DNA of 23,495 bases, from IMG/VR virus record IMGVR_UViG_3300036835_000065, positions 1 to 23,495 of that record, one strand, 5' to 3'. Source of the DNA: a virus. Both the position numbers and the translations under genes were made by a program. How positions within the stretch are numbered: position 1 is the first letter of the stretch; each line of letters begins with the position of its first letter. The notes beneath the pieces are model-generated. The model saw nothing but the letters and a program-made list of their open reading frames with translations. It searched no databases and was not told the DNA's origin. Below, piece after piece: positions 2,988-23,495 of this stretch.

Positions 2988-3084
2988 CGACGCCGAGACG
3001 ACGCGGACACCCGCCCCGCCCCCCTGTCGTCGGTCGTCGCGCCGGCGGTTTCTCGGGCCGTTGGTCGTGTCATCGTTCGTTTGT

Positions 3085-3123
3085 CCCGCCGTCAGACTGG
3101 CGGTTGGCGGCGGGGCGTTTTTT
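3085..3123 (+). terminator. Rho-independent terminator after endolysin
   Basis: A stem of CCCGCCG (3085-3091) with CGGCGGG (3108-3114), separated by 16 bases, is followed by GCG and six T residues (3118-3123). It closes the plus-strand unit that runs from the early genes through int to lysis, and isolates it from the structural genes starting at 3188. The 2988-3187 gap otherwise holds a pyrimidine-rich stretch (about 3152-3178) and is where a cos site would be expected. Confidence 0.8.
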
Positions 3124-3187
3124 GTGGGGACGCGCGCCGGAACGCGCCCACTTTTCGGTGATTTTCCCCCCTTTTCGACTGGTCTAG

Positions 3188-4942
3188 TTGACATCACCCT
3201 ACGATCGCAACTATCACCGCCGGGTCGCCGCGCTTCGCCAGGGACCGCCCGTTCCGTGCGCGCACTGCAAGCGGCGGCGCGCGACGACGCTGGATCACTA
3301 TCCGCCGCTGGCGATGCACGCGCACCGACCGAACAGCGGCTGTTGCCGGCTGATCCCGTCGTGCGAGCCGTGCAATCGCCGCGGCGGCGACCAGGTCGCT
3401 AAGGGGATCTGGCGGCCAAGCCTGGCGGTCGCGGCGACCGAGCCCGAGCCCGAGCGCGACGGGATCCCGGCGTCGCATCGGTGCTGGCGGGTCGCGTGGC
3501 TGCGCGAGCTCGTCGACACGATGCCGGCGGACGCGACCTGGCCGCGGCTGATGACGGTCCCGCATCCGCGGGCCGTCGGGTCGCTCGGCGGCGAGCTCAT
3601 CGCGTGGGCGCAGGCGCGCGAGGGGCGTCCGCTGCGCTGGTGGCAGCGGCTGGTCGCGGTGCGGCTGCTCGAGGTCGACGCCGACGAGCTGCTGGTGTGG
3701 GAGACCGCCGTGGTGTCGACGGCCAGGCAGGTCGGTAAGTCGTGGCTGCTGCGCGAGCTGGCGCTGTGGCGCGCACACCAGTCCGAACGGTTCGGCGAGC
3801 CTCAAGACGTCCTGCACACGGGCAAGGACCTGGCCGTCTGCAAGGAGGTCCAGCGGCCGGCGCGGATCTGGGCCAAGGCGCGGCGCGACGAGTATCGCGT
3901 CCGCGAGGTCAACGGCCAGGAAGAGATCGAGCTGATCGCCGACGGGTCGCGGTGGATGCTCAGGGCCAAAGAGGCCGTGTATGGCTATTCGGTCGCGCTG
4001 GCGCTGGTCGACGAGGGCTGGAAGGTCCGCGCGAGCAGCGTTGACGAGGGGTTGACGCCGACGATGGCCGAGCGCGAACAGCCGCAGCTCGTGTTGCTGT
4101 CGACGGCGCACCGCCGCGCTACGTCGCTGATGCTCGAGCGGCGCGCGATGGCGCTGGACACGCTCGAGACCGGCGACGGCGACCTGATCGTCGAATGGTC
4201 GGCGCCGGCCGGCTCGAGCCACGAGGACCGGCAGGCGTGGCGGCTGGCGTCGCCGCACTGGTCGCCGCGGCGCGAGCGGCTGATCACCAACGCGCACGCG
4301 AAGATGATGGCCGGCGAGATCGAGGATCCCGACGAGCCCGATCCGGTCGAGGCGTTCCGCGCGCAGTGGCTGAATCAGTGGCCGCGCAAGCTCGCCGAGC
4401 CGTCGGGGCCGACCGAGCCGCTGCTGGGCGACGGCGTCTGGACGGGGCTGCGCGCCGACGAGCGGCTCGACGCCGACGGTCCGATCTGGGTCGCGGTCGA
4501 GGACGACTACGGGCTCGGCGCGGCGGTCGCGTGCGCGCGACGGCTCGGCGATGGGCGGATCGAGGTCGACGGCTGGCTGCATGGAGACTGGGACTCGGCG
4601 ATCGTGTCTGTGGAGGCGCTGGCGGCCGCGTACAGGGTCCGGCGGCTGCTGGTCGGCGCGTCACTCATGGACCGGATCCCGGCGGTGCTACGCGCGCTGT
4701 CAGAGGCCAGGACGGGCGCTCAAACGCGCGCCGGCCTGTCGCTGCTGCGCGATTTGGCGAACAGCGGCCAGGTCGCGTATGACGACGCGCCCGAGCTCGC
4801 CGGCGCGATCGGCGTGGCGATGGTCCGCGAGGCGCCGACCGGGCTGCTGCTGGTGACCAAGGGGCCGACGCATCTGGTCCGCGCGTTGACGTGGGCGGTC
4901 GCCGCGGCGCACAAGCCGGCGCTCGAGCCCGCGATCCACTAG
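3188..4942 (+). CDS. terL: HNH endonuclease-large terminase fusion
   Basis: DNA-packaging ATPase/nuclease of 584 residues with an unusual N-terminal HNH-type domain. HNH part (about 20-75): C24-x2-C27, D36-H37 (TLDHYPP), CC52-53, then C59-x2-C62-N63 (SCEPCNRRGG), giving paired Cys zinc ligands around the DH motif. Terminase part: Walker A at 177-185 (STARQVGKS), Walker B at 271-276 (LALVDE), coupling motif LLSTA (303-307) and a nuclease-like region from about 433 (WVAVEDDYG). The frame is closed by TAG just before TTG 3188, which is the only start upstream of the HNH cysteines; no Shine-Dalgarno precedes it. HNH genes commonly neighbour terL in cos-type phages, but here the two are one frame. 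No separate small terminase was recognised. Confidence 0.9.
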   Translation: MTSPYDRNYHRRVAALRQGPPVPCAHCKRRRATTLDHYPPLAMHAHRPNSGCCRLIPSCEPCNRRGGDQVAKGIWRPSLAVAATEPEPERDGIPASHRCWRVAWLRELVDTMPADATWPRLMTVPHPRAVGSLGGELIAWAQAREGRPLRWWQRLVAVRLLEVDADELLVWETAVVSTARQVGKSWLLRELALWRAHQSERFGEPQDVLHTGKDLAVCKEVQRPARIWAKARRDEYRVREVNGQEEIELIADGSRWMLRAKEAVYGYSVALALVDEGWKVRASSVDEGLTPTMAEREQPQLVLLSTAHRRATSLMLERRAMALDTLETGDGDLIVEWSAPAGSSHEDRQAWRLASPHWSPRRERLITNAHAKMMAGEIEDPDEPDPVEAFRAQWLNQWPRKLAEPSGPTEPLLGDGVWTGLRADERLDADGPIWVAVEDDYGLGAAVACARRLGDGRIEVDGWLHGDWDSAIVSVEALAAAYRVRRLLVGASLMDRIPAVLRALSEARTGAQTRAGLSLLRDLANSGQVAYDDAPELAGAIGVAMVREAPTGLLLVTKGPTHLVRALTWAVAAAHKPALEPAIH

Positions 4943-5759: not shown

Positions 5760-7016
5760 ATGACGCTGTTTCGGTCGATCCGTCCGCCGGACGATGTAAC
5801 GCCGAATCCGAACGACCCGGCGGACGTCCCGCCCGCGACCGTCGGACCGCCGAGCGCGACCCCGGGCGACCCGCACGGCGTCGTGGCCGAGGGCGACGCC
5901 GCCCCGTCGATCCCGCCGCCGACGATCGTCCCGTCCGCCTGGTCGGGCTGGCCGGCGGACTGGTGGCCGCCGATGTGGGGCGGGCGGCTCGACGAGCTGA
6001 CCGACACCGCATGGATGTGCCTGGACCTAAACAGCTCGATCCTCGCGACGATGCCGCCCTACCTCGTCGGCGCCGCCGAGTCGATCGACGCCGGCTGGAC
6101 GCGCAACCCCGACCCCGACACCTACACGTCCTGGGAAGAGTTCGCCAAGCAGCTGTTCTGGGACTACATGCTCGGCGAGGTGTTCGTGATCGCGACCGCC
6201 TGGTATGCGACCGGCTATCCGGCCCGGTTTCACGTCGTCCCGCCGTGGGCCGTCAACGTCGAGATGGGCGACGGCGTGCGGTCCTATTCGATCGGCAATC
6301 TCGACGTCACCCGCGACCTGCTGCACGTCCGCTACAAGAGCACGGTCGACGACTGTCACGGACACGGGCCGCTCGAGGCCGGCGCCGCCAGGCTCGTCGC
6401 CGAGCAGCTGCTGTCGCGCTACGTGACGCAGTTCGCCGCCAATGGCGGGATCCCGACCGGGATCCTCACGCACCCCGAAGAGCTGACCGCCAAACAGTCC
6501 GCCGACCTGCAGGCGCAATGGATCCAGGCCAGGGCCGCGAACATGGGCGCGCCGGCGGTCCTGTCGGGCGGCGTCGCGTGGCAGTCGGTCCAGGCCAACC
6601 CGAAAGAGACCGCGCTGGTCGATCTCGGGCAGCTGACCGAATCGAGGATCGCGGTGCTGCTCGGCGTCCCGCCGTACCTCGTCGGATTGCCATCCGGCGC
6701 CGACCAGTCGCTGACCTACTCAAACGCCAGCGGCCTGTTCGACTATCACTGGCGCGCCGGGCTGCGACCGAAGGCGCAAACGGTGATGGCGGCGCTGTCG
6801 GAGTGGGCGCTGCCGCGCGGGACGGCCGTCGAGGTCAACCGCGACGCCTACGTCGAGCCCGAGCCCTACCAGCGCGCGCAGACCGCGCAGATCCTCAACA
6901 ACATTCGCGACCCGCAAGGCAACCCCGCCTTGACCGTCGACGAGATCCGGGCCGCCGAGCGGCTGACCGTCGCCGGCGCGTCCGGGCTCGTCCCGGAGGT
7001 AGTGACCAATGAGTGA
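5760..7016 (+). CDS. Portal protein, HK97 type
   Basis: Forms the dodecameric ring through which DNA enters the head. The 418-residue protein has a Pro-rich disordered N-terminus (about 1-60), then the portal core: LNSSILATMPPYLV (about 90), LFWDYMLGEVFVIA (crown/stem region), RFHVVPPWAVNVE, DLLHVRYKS, and ILLG-type 'RIAVLLGVPPYLVGLP' near 310, all characteristic of the HK97-like portal family. There is no Shine-Dalgarno, and TAG directly precedes the ATG. It overlaps the protease gene by eight bases. It sits downstream of the reverse cassette, where most relatives have terL directly adjoining. Confidence 0.92.
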   Translation: MTLFRSIRPPDDVTPNPNDPADVPPATVGPPSATPGDPHGVVAEGDAAPSIPPPTIVPSAWSGWPADWWPPMWGGRLDELTDTAWMCLDLNSSILATMPPYLVGAAESIDAGWTRNPDPDTYTSWEEFAKQLFWDYMLGEVFVIATAWYATGYPARFHVVPPWAVNVEMGDGVRSYSIGNLDVTRDLLHVRYKSTVDDCHGHGPLEAGAARLVAEQLLSRYVTQFAANGGIPTGILTHPEELTAKQSADLQAQWIQARAANMGAPAVLSGGVAWQSVQANPKETALVDLGQLTESRIAVLLGVPPYLVGLPSGADQSLTYSNASGLFDYHWRAGLRPKAQTVMAALSEWALPRGTAVEVNRDAYVEPEPYQRAQTAQILNNIRDPQGNPALTVDEIRAAERLTVAGASGLVPEVVTNE

Positions 7017-13986: not shown

Positions 13987-15170
13987 TGCAACCCGCGTCC
14001 GCACAGTTTTTCGAGTCGCTGCGGTTCTCGCACGTGATCGCGGTCGCGTGCGAGCTGATCTTTCCCGGCAAGACCGACGCCGACGCGATCAGTGTCCCTG
14101 TCGAGGCGGGCAGTATCACGATCGACCGGACCGCGCAGAACCGCCGCGCCGGGACGATCACGATCCCATGGTCGCTGGACGCCGGCGAGGATCTCGGGAT
14201 CGACATTCGCACGCTCCCGCTCGGCGGCTACGCGCTCGTGCACCGCGGCTTGCGGTATGCCAGCGGTCAGACCGAGCTGATCCTGCTCGGCCGGCTGCGG
14301 GTCGAATCGGTCACGTGGGACACGCTGGCCGCCAGCGCGTCACTCGAGCTCGCTGACCGTAACGCGCAGATCGCCGACGAGCCGTTCACCGCCCCCTATG
14401 CCGCCGCCGGGCAGACGCCGGCCGGCGCGGCCGTCGGGATCGTCCAGGGCGTGTTCGGCTCGACGATCGCCTACAACTGGCCATACAACCCGCCGGGCCT
14501 GCTCGGCGACGTCACCTACACCGGCCAGCGGACCGACGCGCTGTCCGCGCTCGAGCAATCCTATGCCGCCGAAACGTACTTTGACGCCAACGGCGACTTC
14601 GTGTTCGCCTCAAAGCCCGGCGACACCGACCCGGTCGTGTGGACCGTCGACGCCAGCCCGACCGGCGTGATGATCAACGCGCAAGAGAGCCTAGACCGGA
14701 CCGGCATCTACAACGGCGTGCTCGTCACCGGGCAGGGTGACGCCGACCAGCCGCCCGTTACCGGCCTGGCCGTCTACGACGATCCCGGCAGTCCGGTCCG
14801 CTGGGGCGGCCCGTTCGGCAAGGTCGCGTTACTCGCCGACTCGACCAGCGTCACGACATCAGACGAGGCCGTCGCGACCGCACAGTCGCTATTGAACCTT
14901 CGTCTCAAGCAGACCCGGTCGCTGAACCTGACCGCCGCGCCGAACCCCGCGCTCGAGGCCGGCGACACGATCGCCGTCGACTTTCCCGACGGCCGCAACG
15001 AGACGCATCTGATCGACTCCACGACCATCGACCTGTCGACCGCCGCGCAGACCATCACAACCCGGACACTGTTCGCGCCCGCCGCCGGCCCGGCCGTACA
15101 GACCGACCGGCTCTATTACGGCCGAGACGCGTGGCGCGAAGCGCAGGATGCGCAACTGGTGGCCGCGTGA
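13986..15170 (+). CDS. Minor tail protein, DUF5047-like
   Basis: A 394-residue protein beginning at TGATG overlap 13986. The pattern '[20 protein letters not shown]' followed by '[20 protein letters not shown]' resembles DUF5047-type tail proteins of actinophages (from memory). The middle is beta-rich, and the C-terminal part has '[18 protein letters not shown]', typical of hub/adhesin-carrier proteins. Longer upstream frame (from 13449) is a shadow of the preceding gene. Confidence 0.65.
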
Positions 15171-15781
15171 GCACGGTCCCCGCCAGCCGCACGCTCGAGG
15201 GTGTGCTCCGCGCCGCGCTCGAGCCCGGCAACCCGCTAAAGGTGATCGTCGGCACCTACGCGACCCTGGCGAGCACCGACCCGTGCTACGCCAACATCGA
15301 GATCGCCGGCGCCGTCTACCAGGTCCCGCAGCTAAACGGGATGGCCGCGCAGCCCGCCGGCAGCCCGGCCTATCTGCTCGCCGACAACACGCGCATGTGG
15401 GTACTCGGGACCGTCACCGAAACCGCCGGCACCGGCACGCCAGGACCAGCAGGACCGACCGGCCCGACCGGACCAGCGGGACCAGCGGGCCCGGCCGGAC
15501 CGGCCGGCGCGACCGGCAGCGCCGGACCAGCAGGACCGACCGGCCCCGCCGGGCCGACGGGACCAGCCGGCGCGACCGGACCGCAGGGCCCGTCAGGCGC
15601 GTCGACATTCGTGTCCGGCAGCGGCGCGCCGACCGCGGGGACCGGCGCCGACGGAGCGATCTACATGGACACCGCCAGCGGCCGCGTCTGGGGACCCAAG
15701 GCCGCCGGCGCGTGGCCCGGCGCCGCGTTCGGCCGCGTCGTCCCGCTCACCCCCACCTACGCGCAGATCAAGACCGGATAA
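15167..15781 (+). CDS. Collagen-like minor tail protein
   Basis: A 204-residue protein from GTG 15167, overlapping the previous stop. Residues 1-88 are a globular attachment domain, residues 90-146 are 19 uninterrupted Gly-X-Y triplets, and 147-204 form a C-terminal head ([20 protein letters not shown] is typical of tail-fibre collagen tips). The protein should trimerise into a rigid rod, placing the tip domain at the tail end, so it is a candidate receptor-contacting fibre. Its stop overlaps the ribosome-binding site of the next gene. Confidence 0.85.
15434..15604 (+). repeat. Collagen triplet repeat (Gly-X-Y)19
   Basis: Nineteen consecutive triplets with Gly first: mainly GPA and GPT, with GAT twice and GTP, GSA, GPQ, GPS and GAS once each. 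The codons form imperfect nine-base DNA repeats (ggaccagca type). Such repeats expand or contract by recombination, so fibre length could vary among relatives. Confidence 0.9.
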
Positions 15782-15792
15782 GGAGAACCACG

Positions 15793-16434
15793 ATGGGCCA
15801 GACGACGCTCTACCTGCTGCCATATCCCGAGCCGGCCGAGGTCGCCGACGTCCCGGCCGACATGAAGAAACTGGCCGACAAGGTCGACGGGCTATTACGC
15901 CCCCCGAGCGTAACGACGCTCCCGTCCAGTCCGACCGACGGCCAGGAGGTCTATTACAAGCTGGCCAGCGGCGGCTACTGGCACCTTCGCTATGGGGCGA
16001 GTAACGCCGGCTCCTACAAGTGGGATGCGGTCGGCTCATCCGCTCCGTTGTCGGCGGCCGGCGCCGGAGGTCAGACCGTCAACTCTGGCGGGGCCGGGAC
16101 GTTCATCGCGTGGCCGAGCGGCCCGCAGATCACGCTTCCGCTCGGCGGGATCTACCGCTACAGCTTCCAGTTCGGCTGGCAGCTACAGACGGCGGCGCTC
16201 AGCGAGGCTGACGTGCGCGTGCAAACGTCGGCTGGTGTCCCGATCACTCCCAACAAGGCCAAAGAGGTCCGCACGACTCAGTGGCAGGCGTCTGTCACGC
16301 ACTTCGAGGAAGCCGCGTCGATGGGGGCGGCCGGGACGATATTGCAGCTCGGCGTCGCGACGAGCGTAAGCATCGCCCTGCTCGGTGCCGACCCGCCGCC
16401 GACGATGCTGCTAACGCCGATCCAGGTCGGCTGA
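15793..16434 (+). CDS. Tail-tip/receptor-binding candidate protein
   Basis: A 213-residue protein with AAGGAG (15780-15785) and a good spacer before ATG 15793. The sequence 'TTLPSSPTDGQEVYYKLASGGYWHLRY' (about 40-66) is the usual fibre-tip segment (T-LP-SP-DG-E-Y-) found in minor tail proteins, followed by a beta-rich C-terminal domain. As the last plus-strand structural gene it is the best host-range determinant candidate. Its 3' end overlaps the methyltransferase 3' end by 24 bp on the opposite strand. Confidence 0.7.
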   Translation: MGQTTLYLLPYPEPAEVADVPADMKKLADKVDGLLRPPSVTTLPSSPTDGQEVYYKLASGGYWHLRYGASNAGSYKWDAVGSSAPLSAAGAGGQTVNSGGAGTFIAWPSGPQITLPLGGIYRYSFQFGWQLQTAALSEADVRVQTSAGVPITPNKAKEVRTTQWQASVTHFEEAASMGAAGTILQLGVATSVSIALLGADPPPTMLLTPIQVG

Positions 16435-17349
16435 CGCAAGTTGCGCTCGCGCCGCGGCCAGCTCGGGCTCGAGCTCGCCGAACAGACTGTCGCGATAACG
16501 CGCGAAGCTGACCGGCACGACCAGGTCGCGATCGGAACGGCGCAGGCTCGCGGCGATCAGCCCGTCGCCGCTGAACGACTCGCCGACCGTGTGCTCCGCA
16601 ACCACATGCGCACCGACGCTCTCAAGCAGCGCCAGACACCGCTGATGCGTCATCGGATCACCGGAAATCGAATGATGATGCGTCGAGACCACGACAAACC
16701 GGATCCGCCCCGCAGCCAACAGGCTCGCGGCTCGCTCAACCACGTCGAGCTCGGAGCCCTGCACGTCGACCAGCAACAGGTCGATCGCCCCAAGGCGCTC
16801 ATCCTCCAACAGTCCCGCGACGGTCACGACCGGCAGTTCGCGCTCGACATTGTCGCTTTCGCAGACCAGCCGCGCGCGGCTGCCATGCGCACCGCCGACG
16901 GCCGCCTGAATCAGTCGCGCATCCAGCCCGTTAAGCGCAAGGTTCACACGGCCGACGTCAAGGTTGCCCGGATCGGGCTCGACCAGCACCACCCGGAGGC
17001 CGAGCGCGCGCGTCGCCCAGATCGAGTAATAGCCCCAGAACGCCCCGAGCTCGACGATCGCTCCGGGCTGCGGACTCGGATCCTCGCGCAGTCGCTGCAC
17101 GATGTGATGAAACGCGAGCTCTTCTTGGGGCTCGTGATGGCCGCGCAACCGGCGGATGATCTCGGTCATCCAATCGCCGTGGTAGCAGCCCGCGACGATC
17201 CGCGTTCCTTCGTGCATCACCTGCACCCGCACGCCGTTCTCGTCCTTGATCGCGCCGGCGTCAGCAACCTTGGGGATCGGGTCGGCGTCGCGGCAGGAGA
17301 CCGTCAACGCCACCCGCCGCGCCGCCGGCTCCGGCAGGTTGACGGTCAT
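16411..17349 (-). CDS. FkbM-family SAM-dependent methyltransferase
   Basis: A 312-residue Rossmann-fold methyltransferase. SAM-binding motif I is 'AIVELGAFWGYYSIWAT' (E100-L-G-x-F-W-G), motif II 'VVLVEPDPGNLD' (E124-P-D), and the post-motif 'DLLLVDVQGSELDVVE' (190-205) is the FkbM hallmark D-V-x-G-x-E. The family typically O-methylates sugars or small molecules; the substrate here is unknown, though a surface glycan is a reasonable guess. It begins directly after the repressor stop, on the same strand, so it should be transcribed in the lysogen. Nothing structural for the virion depends on it, so it looks like a cargo or conversion gene. Confidence 0.88.
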   Translation of the reverse strand: MTVNLPEPAARRVALTVSCRDADPIPKVADAGAIKDENGVRVQVMHEGTRIVAGCYHGDWMTEIIRRLRGHHEPQEELAFHHIVQRLREDPSPQPGAIVELGAFWGYYSIWATRALGLRVVLVEPDPGNLDVGRVNLALNGLDARLIQAAVGGAHGSRARLVCESDNVERELPVVTVAGLLEDERLGAIDLLLVDVQGSELDVVERAASLLAAGRIRFVVVSTHHHSISGDPMTHQRCLALLESVGAHVVAEHTVGESFSGDGLIAASLRRSDRDLVVPVSFARYRDSLFGELEPELAAARAQLASADLDRR

Positions 17350-22809: not shown

Positions 22810-23123
22810 TGCCGCGCGGCACTGACTACAAGATCCCGCTCGTTGACCTTTTGGACGCGGCTCGTCGTCACGAGGGCGGCTGGTCGCTGCGGTCGATCGC
22901 GCGGCTGCACTGGCGGCGCTGGGAATACTCGAGCGACCGCAGTGCGCTCGAGGGGTTGCGCCGCGCGCTGCGGACGATCGACGCGCCCGTCCGCGATCGC
23001 GTCGAGGCGACGATTCTCGCGAGCACCATGCATGGCAATTCAAGCCGCGCGGCGCGTGAGCCCGGACATCCCGACCATGCCCGGTTTCTCGCGCACCGCC
23101 GGGCGACCAGGGCGCGGACGTGA
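22809..23123 (+). CDS. Small basic early protein with HTH-like segment
   Basis: A 104-residue protein. 'DLLDAARRHEGGWSLRSIAR' then 'LHWRRWEYSSDRSALEGLRR' could form a helix-turn-helix (GWSLRSIARLHW). The rest is strongly basic. DNA-binding is likely; a small-terminase role was considered but no supporting evidence seen. TGATG start at 22809; overlaps the excisionase gene by four bases. Confidence 0.55.
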   Translation: MPRGTDYKIPLVDLLDAARRHEGGWSLRSIARLHWRRWEYSSDRSALEGLRRALRTIDAPVRDRVEATILASTMHGNSSRAAREPGHPDHARFLAHRRATRART

Positions 23124-23326
23124 CCGGCCGGCTGTTGACCGTCGACGACGTCGCCGAGCTGACCGGCATGGGCCGCGACTGGATCTACGCGCAGGTCCGC
23201 GCCGGCCAGATCCCGCATGTCCGAATGGGCCGGTACGTCCGGTTTCGCGAGGCCACGATCGACGAGTGGCTCGCCGAGCTCGAGCGGCGGTCCAAGAAAC
23301 CCACCCGCCTACGCGGTGTAGGATGA
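23120..23326 (+). CDS. xis: Excisionase-like MerR/HTH_17 protein
   Basis: A 68-residue protein, GTG start. 'LLTVDDVAELTGMGRDWIYA' followed by 'VRAGQIPHVRMGRYVRFREA' and 'TIDEWLAEL' is the DNA-binding fold of HTH_17/excisionase proteins. On the circle it lies 69 bp upstream of int in the same direction, the normal order for a recombination directionality factor bending DNA at attP/attR. It closes the early operon. Confidence 0.82.
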   Translation: MTGRLLTVDDVAELTGMGRDWIYAQVRAGQIPHVRMGRYVRFREATIDEWLAELERRSKKPTRLRGVG

Positions 23327-23343: not shown

Positions 23344-23372
23344 GGGCTCGCGCCGCGACAACGGCCGAGCCC
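23344..23372 (+). promoter_or_regulatory. Hairpin in xis-int spacer
   Basis: GGGCTCG (23344-23350) pairs with CGAGCCC (23366-23372), loop 15 bases, 8 bp before the AAGGAG of int. No T-run follows, so it is more likely a message-level control of integrase than a terminator. It is lost in the left copy at 1-17 because of the six C mismatches, another reason to mistrust that end. Confidence 0.35.
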
Positions 23373-23495
23373 ACGGCCCAAGGAGAACACCCTCCATGAG
23401 CACCGCCAAAGCTACCTCACGCCGGCCCCGCGGGACCGGCTCGATCGAGATCAAGAACTGCGTCTATTACGGCACCTGGCGCCAGGATGGCCGAC
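23370..23495 (+). repeat. Right copy of terminal redundancy
   Basis: Same 126 bases as 18-143. The copy runs to the window's last base, so it could continue beyond it. It should be collapsed with the left copy when closing the circle. Confidence 0.93.
23396..23495 (+). CDS. int: Integrase 5' end, duplicated by circular overlap (partial)
   Basis: The first 33 codons of the integrase, identical to 44-143, truncated by the window end. This is not a second gene: it is the same start seen again through terminal redundancy, and it gives the correct upstream context (xis, hairpin, AAGGAG at 23380-23385). Confidence 0.9.
   Translation, partial: MSTAKATSRRPRGTGSIEIKNCVYYGTWRQDGR

Follow-up and report, generated by a model that had tools for sequence, protein, structure and literature searches.

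An HNH nuclease-like module fused to the large terminase of a probable small temperate phage: a candidate one-piece cut-and-pack terminase

Which domain cuts the genome end when an HNH-type nuclease and a packaging motor share one polypeptide? A separate HNH protein encoded beside terL, which the first-pass annotation of this locus had mentioned, is an established partner of the large terminase (TerL) in cos packaging (PMC9410871 and PMC5304195, both citing Kala et al. 2014). The HNH is thus a known terminase helper in cos phages, while the division of work between it and the terminase nuclease is unsettled. In the gene described here the HNH module is fused to a terminase whose own nuclease site is altered, so that this division of labor becomes directly testable on one protein. 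The reading that we favor, with reasonable though not strong confidence from sequence comparison and structural models, is a one-piece cut-and-pack terminase, in which the HNH module would cut at cos, the ATPase would package, and the RNase-H-like domain would have lost its usual site.

The window (the whole stretch of DNA that was analyzed, 23,495 nucleotides) is probably a circularly closed and almost complete assembly, as its ends (1-143 and 23353-23495) form an imperfect overlap with a 95.8% match over 143 bases, and the excisionase gene at 23120-23326 extends as far as the integrase gene at 44. The genome is probably a closed circle of about 23.35 kb that belongs to a small temperate phage. 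Contigs of several relatives are of comparable size (23,064, 23,147, 23,324, 23,554 and 23,613 bases). On the 3' side of the fusion gene lie genes for the portal (PF04860), prohead protease (PF04586) and major capsid (PF25209) proteins. Farther along, a tail-region protein (15131-15781) contains a tract of collagen-like Gly-x-y repeats, and a methyltransferase-like gene (16411-17349, minus strand; phrog_8156, E 2e-12) lies on the opposite strand between the tail and repressor genes. The features of the locus are the following.

2988-3187, plus strand: intergenic stretch between a lysin-like gene and TerL, from which a small terminase gene is absent
3118-3171, plus strand: predicted cos region, with a T-run (3118-3123), a predicted left genome end near 3151 and a T/C-run (3162-3171)
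3188-4942, plus strand: HNH-TerL fusion gene, 584 amino acids plus stop, TTG start (open-reading-frame call, PHROG 9 match, same layout in relatives)
3188-3409, plus strand: predicted HNH/EndoVII-like Cys4 beta-beta-alpha module, type A (AlphaFold2; phrog_10378 HNH, E 1e-4; 5h0m, Z 5.2)
3410-3529, plus strand: linker from the HNH module to the ATPase, residues 75-114 (pLDDT profile, with low confidence at 79-85)
3716-3742, plus strand: Walker A, S177-S185 (STARQVGKS), aligned with HK97 R56/K60
3998-4015, plus strand: Walker B, L271-E276 (LALVDE), aligned with HK97 D153/E154
4415-4918, plus strand: RNase-H-like nuclease domain, approximately residues 410-577, with an altered triad (5c12 fold match, residue mapping, conservation in 79 sequences)
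5760-7016, plus strand: portal protein, downstream of TerL (PF04860, E 3.6e-36)

A stop codon lies in frame immediately 5' of the TTG, which is the sole ATG, GTG or TTG codon in frame upstream of C24; its position agrees with the starts of the relatives. No clear Shine-Dalgarno sequence was seen upstream of this TTG (3188).

The first-pass annotation had read from the letters an HNH pattern at C24, C27, D36-H37, C59 and C62-N63 ahead of Walker A (177-185) and Walker B (271-276), and all of these positions proved right. It had made the HNH reading depend on a beta-beta-alpha fold. Residues 1-101, modeled alone by AlphaFold2 (mean pLDDT 87.8), gave a helix, strands at 34-38 and 54-58, and a helix at 60-72, which is the beta-beta-alpha arrangement, with a paired-cysteine, putatively zinc-binding site made by C24, C27, C59 and C62. 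Across 42 type-A sequences (38-65% identity to the window over the module region) the residues C24, C27, A32, D36, H37, P39, P40, H44, H46, C52, C53, P57, C59, C62, G73 and G92 are invariant, a pattern that is far beyond chance. It includes D36-H37, with the putative general-base histidine placed after the putative metal-binding aspartate. The strict H-N-H triad is absent, as the middle position is occupied by R54 (H37-R54-N63), and N63, which is present in the window, gives way to A, Q or G in a small number of relatives. The HNH pattern of the annotation hence stands in its Cys4 site and its D36-H37 pair and falls short in the middle asparagine. The loss of this asparagine need not abolish activity, because in the GVE2 HNH protein alanine at H93, N109 or H118 cut nicking by 94, 60 and 83%, respectively (PMC5304195).

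Comparisons with known structures and families gave low scores. Foldseek with the model of residues 1-101 returned no significant match. VIA-align on the Foldseek candidates gave the top rank to 5h0m, the HNH endonuclease of phage GVE2 (Z 5.2, 71 residues, 25% identity), and placed T4 endonuclease VII (Z 4.7), the Gme HNH protein 4h9d (4.1) and Hpy99I (3.6) in the top ten; thymidine kinase chains and Lsr2 reached Z values similar to those of the HNH matches. The Pfam family with the most matches was Endonuclease_7 (PF02945), in 11 of the 42 type-A members, with a best E of 0.0015. A PDB sequence search with the HNH profile gave weak matches only, one of them to an HNH nuclease (4h9d), and annotated phages searched by tblastn with the type-A module yielded no match at E<1. 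In light of these low scores, we base the HNH fold assignment on the combination of the residue pattern, the PHROG HNH match, the Endonuclease_7 matches and the structure prediction. Together they bear out the proposal of an HNH/EndoVII-like module fused in frame to the TerL N-terminus, with the predicted strands and helix in place and a solved HNH structure ranked first, if at weak scores.

The remainder of the protein is a terminase. Its body matches phrog_9 (terminase large subunit; E 2e-31), and the full-length AlphaFold2 model (mean pLDDT 87.4) superimposes on HK97 TerL (6z6d; Z 23.9, 412 residues, rmsd 8.4 over two domains) with the two-domain fold of a TerL, an ATPase followed by an RNase-H-like nuclease. 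With the TerL profile, a sequence search of the PDB gave nothing credible. The ATPase is of the TerL type, with K184, D275 and E276 opposite HK97 K60, D153 and E154. The nuclease domain (residues 410-577) matches that of Sf6 gp2 TerL (5c12) with a Z of 14.2 and an rmsd of 2.9. Yet the three catalytic aspartates of an active TerL nuclease are not found in it: by alignment, the HK97 triad D302/D388/D471 (residue roles from PMC9410871) corresponds to E438/G490/H562, with the assignment of D388 being the less certain. The D302-E438 and D471-H562 pairs were repeated in a profile-profile alignment (E 4.4e-7), for which hhalign required an HK97-family profile, the family against HK97 alone having failed. 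The D388-G490 pair, which is based on a low-identity alignment with HK97 and on the location of G490 at the end of the matching strand, was reproduced by neither the profile-profile nor a joint alignment. Among 79 sequences, 76 have E and three have D at position 438, D439 is present in 78, and D495, near G490, in 63. The prophage relatives L090-L092 keep an aspartate at the third triad position. Since the triad is altered and nearly invariant in its altered form, the HNH module probably does the cutting, as judged from these alignments. Loss of the triad is not unique to fusions, because the TerLs of six isolated actinophages (L093, L094, L095, L097, L104 and L106) have altered triads as well, each differently, and several of these phages carry a separate HNH gene. 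This suggests that loss of the terminase site accompanies the presence of an HNH more widely.

The conservation of E438, D439 and H562, almost invariant among the relatives, can also be taken as an argument for kept function. By this account, the strongest of the alternatives though still unlikely, both nucleases work, the HNH nicking one strand and the RNase-H-like domain, with its E/H site, cutting the other or making the end cut. HK97 offers a precedent, in that its TerL has an intact triad in addition to an HNH protein, and gp74 and TerL are thought to cooperate. A histidine at the third triad position is used in SPP1 (H400). What weakens the two-nuclease account is the second position, where G490 leaves no aspartate at the strand end and the nearby D495 is missing in about 20% of the relatives.

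We located a predicted cos site from the ends of related contigs. Of these contigs, 61 are cut off upstream of the gene, and 29 of the 61 stop within 16 nt of a conserved pyrimidine/C-run, compared to 0.6% for random positions, a clustering that may owe something to breaks of the assembly at hairpins or low-complexity sequence. Physical ends are favored because the end position agrees across many samples. A run of five or six T precedes the C-run in 25 of 28 loci, always at a distance of 41-46 nt (by chance, 0.7% of 42-nt stretches would hold a T-run of this kind). The contig end of relative L007 (CTTTTCTTGTGTTTTCCCCCC) aligns with window position 3151. We predict, from these motifs and ends, that the two-part site just upstream of the gene is the cos site. 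The arrangement of T-run, about 44 nt and C-run is common to loci with either of the two HNH types found on this TerL (types A and B, below), and so the HNH type does not track the main motifs of the site. In many relatives the fusion gene starts at most a few tens of bases from the predicted genome end. Among the unknown open reading frames of the window that were tested, neither PHROGs nor Pfam detected a small terminase; a single weak PHROG small-terminase match (E 0.033) was to an excisionase-like protein, for which excisionase families rank higher. As no small terminase was detected, the HNH module may also help to recognize cos.

A scan of IMG/VR gave 147 relatives, 80 of which were kept, and each of the 72 sequences whose N-terminus is complete (the window included) has the HNH-like module in frame. 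Two unrelated HNH types occur on the same TerL body: type A, as in the window, and type B, which corresponds to PHROG 1808 in 23 of its 24 members and retains an invariant H61 and N78. When the A/B label is mapped on a maximum-likelihood tree built from the TerL body alone (74 rows), parsimony counts eight changes, of which well-supported branches make at least five unavoidable. One pair is illustrative, as L023 (type A) and L054 (type B) are 82% identical in the TerL body and 28% in the N-terminus. As reconstructed on this tree, the HNH module has been swapped at least five times and never lost. Prophage relatives of Nocardioides and Acidimicrobiia (37-41% identity) have an HNH in the same place; L090 and L092 lie in Nocardioides genomes, and L091, in an Acidimicrobiia MAG, is of type A. 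Further scans from these prophages brought more HNH kinds in the N-terminal position, one with a Pfam HNH match (PF01844; L119, score 22.0 against a cut-off of 21.4), two with weaker matches to this family (L125 and L137), and others recognized by motif (L113/L114, L090/L143/L144 and L092). Like type B, the distant types retain the H and N of active nucleases. Some of the distant relatives are without the module or cannot be judged: L138 has no in-frame module, and the start of L136 is close to the contig end. Genome searches suggest that the fusion is rare in bacterial genomes. The bacterial genome L234 has the usual unfused layout, in which an HNH open reading frame (444-740) and a TerL-like one (1339-2844) are separate, with the HNH lying some 600 bases upstream.

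These patterns bear on the remaining alternatives. The module could be a zinc-held domain without catalytic activity that binds DNA and recognizes cos in place of a small terminase, an idea that gains from the lack of a small terminase gene between the predicted cos and TerL and of any detected elsewhere in the window, from the absent middle asparagine and from the variability of N63. We regard it as improbable, given that D36-H37 is invariant in the 42 type-A sequences, that type B and the distant types keep the H and N of active nucleases, and that substitution is always by another HNH-type module, which points to a nuclease function. It is very improbable that the module is what is left of an intein or homing endonuclease that invaded the terminase gene: such elements are known in phage genes, terminases included (PMC5050341), but this module is N-terminal and outside the conserved motifs, every close relative with a complete N-terminus has one, and it is swapped rather than lost, and we set this explanation aside. 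An artifact, with two genes joined by a sequencing error (which the first-pass annotation had named as a way for the fusion to fail) or by an over-called start, has a negligible chance of being correct despite the TTG start and its lack of a clear ribosome-binding site, as about 70 other, independent contigs from many samples carry the HNH pattern and the terminase in the same frame and layout, which rules out the sequencing error.

The one-piece cut-and-pack reading can then be laid out as a mechanism. The virus would be a small temperate actinophage-like virus from a group of soil-bacterium viruses. Its HNH/EndoVII-like module would cut the concatemer at cos, some 20-70 bp upstream of the fusion gene itself, acting as the full nuclease or at a minimum as its essential nicking half, and the ATPase behind it would then drive the DNA through the portal. 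The RNase-H-like domain, lacking the usual three-aspartate site and presumably inactive or weak, would keep its fold, probably for holding DNA or for contacts with the portal and neighboring subunits. A separate small terminase would not be needed. We infer cutting by the HNH, its location at cos, the inactivity or weakness of the RNase-H-like domain and the dispensability of a separate small terminase from sequence and predicted structure; a single protein would then probably make the cut at the genome end and also reel the DNA in. More tentatively, and with less confidence than in the mechanism itself, the whole lineage of small actinophage-like viruses could have moved cutting from the ancestral RNase-H-like domain to an exchangeable N-terminal HNH module, and perhaps now does without a classical small terminase. 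If true, this would be a single-polypeptide cos terminase with its nuclease as a swappable cassette, the cutting domain of a packaging motor having been exchanged repeatedly in evolution without loss.

Relative to the known packaging with a separate HNH, the fused form appears new, judging by the homologues in annotated phages and the open literature searched. Among annotated phages no full-length relative turned up, as no match reached 80% coverage of the query and the alignments listed begin at residue 105 or later; with the distant relatives L119, L144 and L137 as queries, the matches listed comprise the terminase part only. We found no report of an HNH-TerL fusion in the portions of the open literature that the search covered, which do not include Kala et al. 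2014. Cluster EE Microbacterium phages, which have small genomes, are described with other gene fusions and with the HNH as a separate gene.

Among single nucleases, T4 endonuclease VII has the pattern C-x2-C, DH, C-x2-C-N. The module here shares this pattern and matches its structure weakly (rmsd 8.1), and some type-A members match its Pfam family; T4 endonuclease VII, in contrast, is a Holliday-junction resolvase without a motor. The GVE2 HNH protein, the best structural match, is a phage HNH encoded beside the terminase (PMC5304195) and has a Cys4 metal site and a general-base histidine, but it is a separate gene with a true H93-N109-H118 triad. HK97 shares the TerL fold and an HNH encoded beside the genome end. 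It differs in that its HNH, gp74, which promotes cos cleavage (PMC9410871), is a separate gene across cos (39054-39413 of 39732, adjoining the right end), that its TerL triad is intact and that a small terminase is present. The closest isolated TerLs among the matches listed, at about 26% identity, are those of BFK20-like and other actinophages (PHROG 9), which resemble the window in their altered triads and in an HNH at the genome end beside cos. The cysteine patterns that the first-pass annotation mentioned near actinophage terminases are indeed present, as separate genes at the right genome end beside cos rather than fused: BFK20 gp55, Kuleana gp76 and Sbash gp89 are separate HNH proteins, the genes of the first two adjoining the right end, and in 146 annotated phages the type-B module has a gene of its own, which among the matches listed lies at the right end of the linear genome in nearly every case. 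Unlike the window, BFK20, phi673, TinaLin and Kuleana have a small terminase (TerS; PF23931) directly upstream of TerL. Thus, the usual order at the junction in separate-HNH phages is HNH, cos, TerS, TerL, and here it is cos, HNH-TerL.
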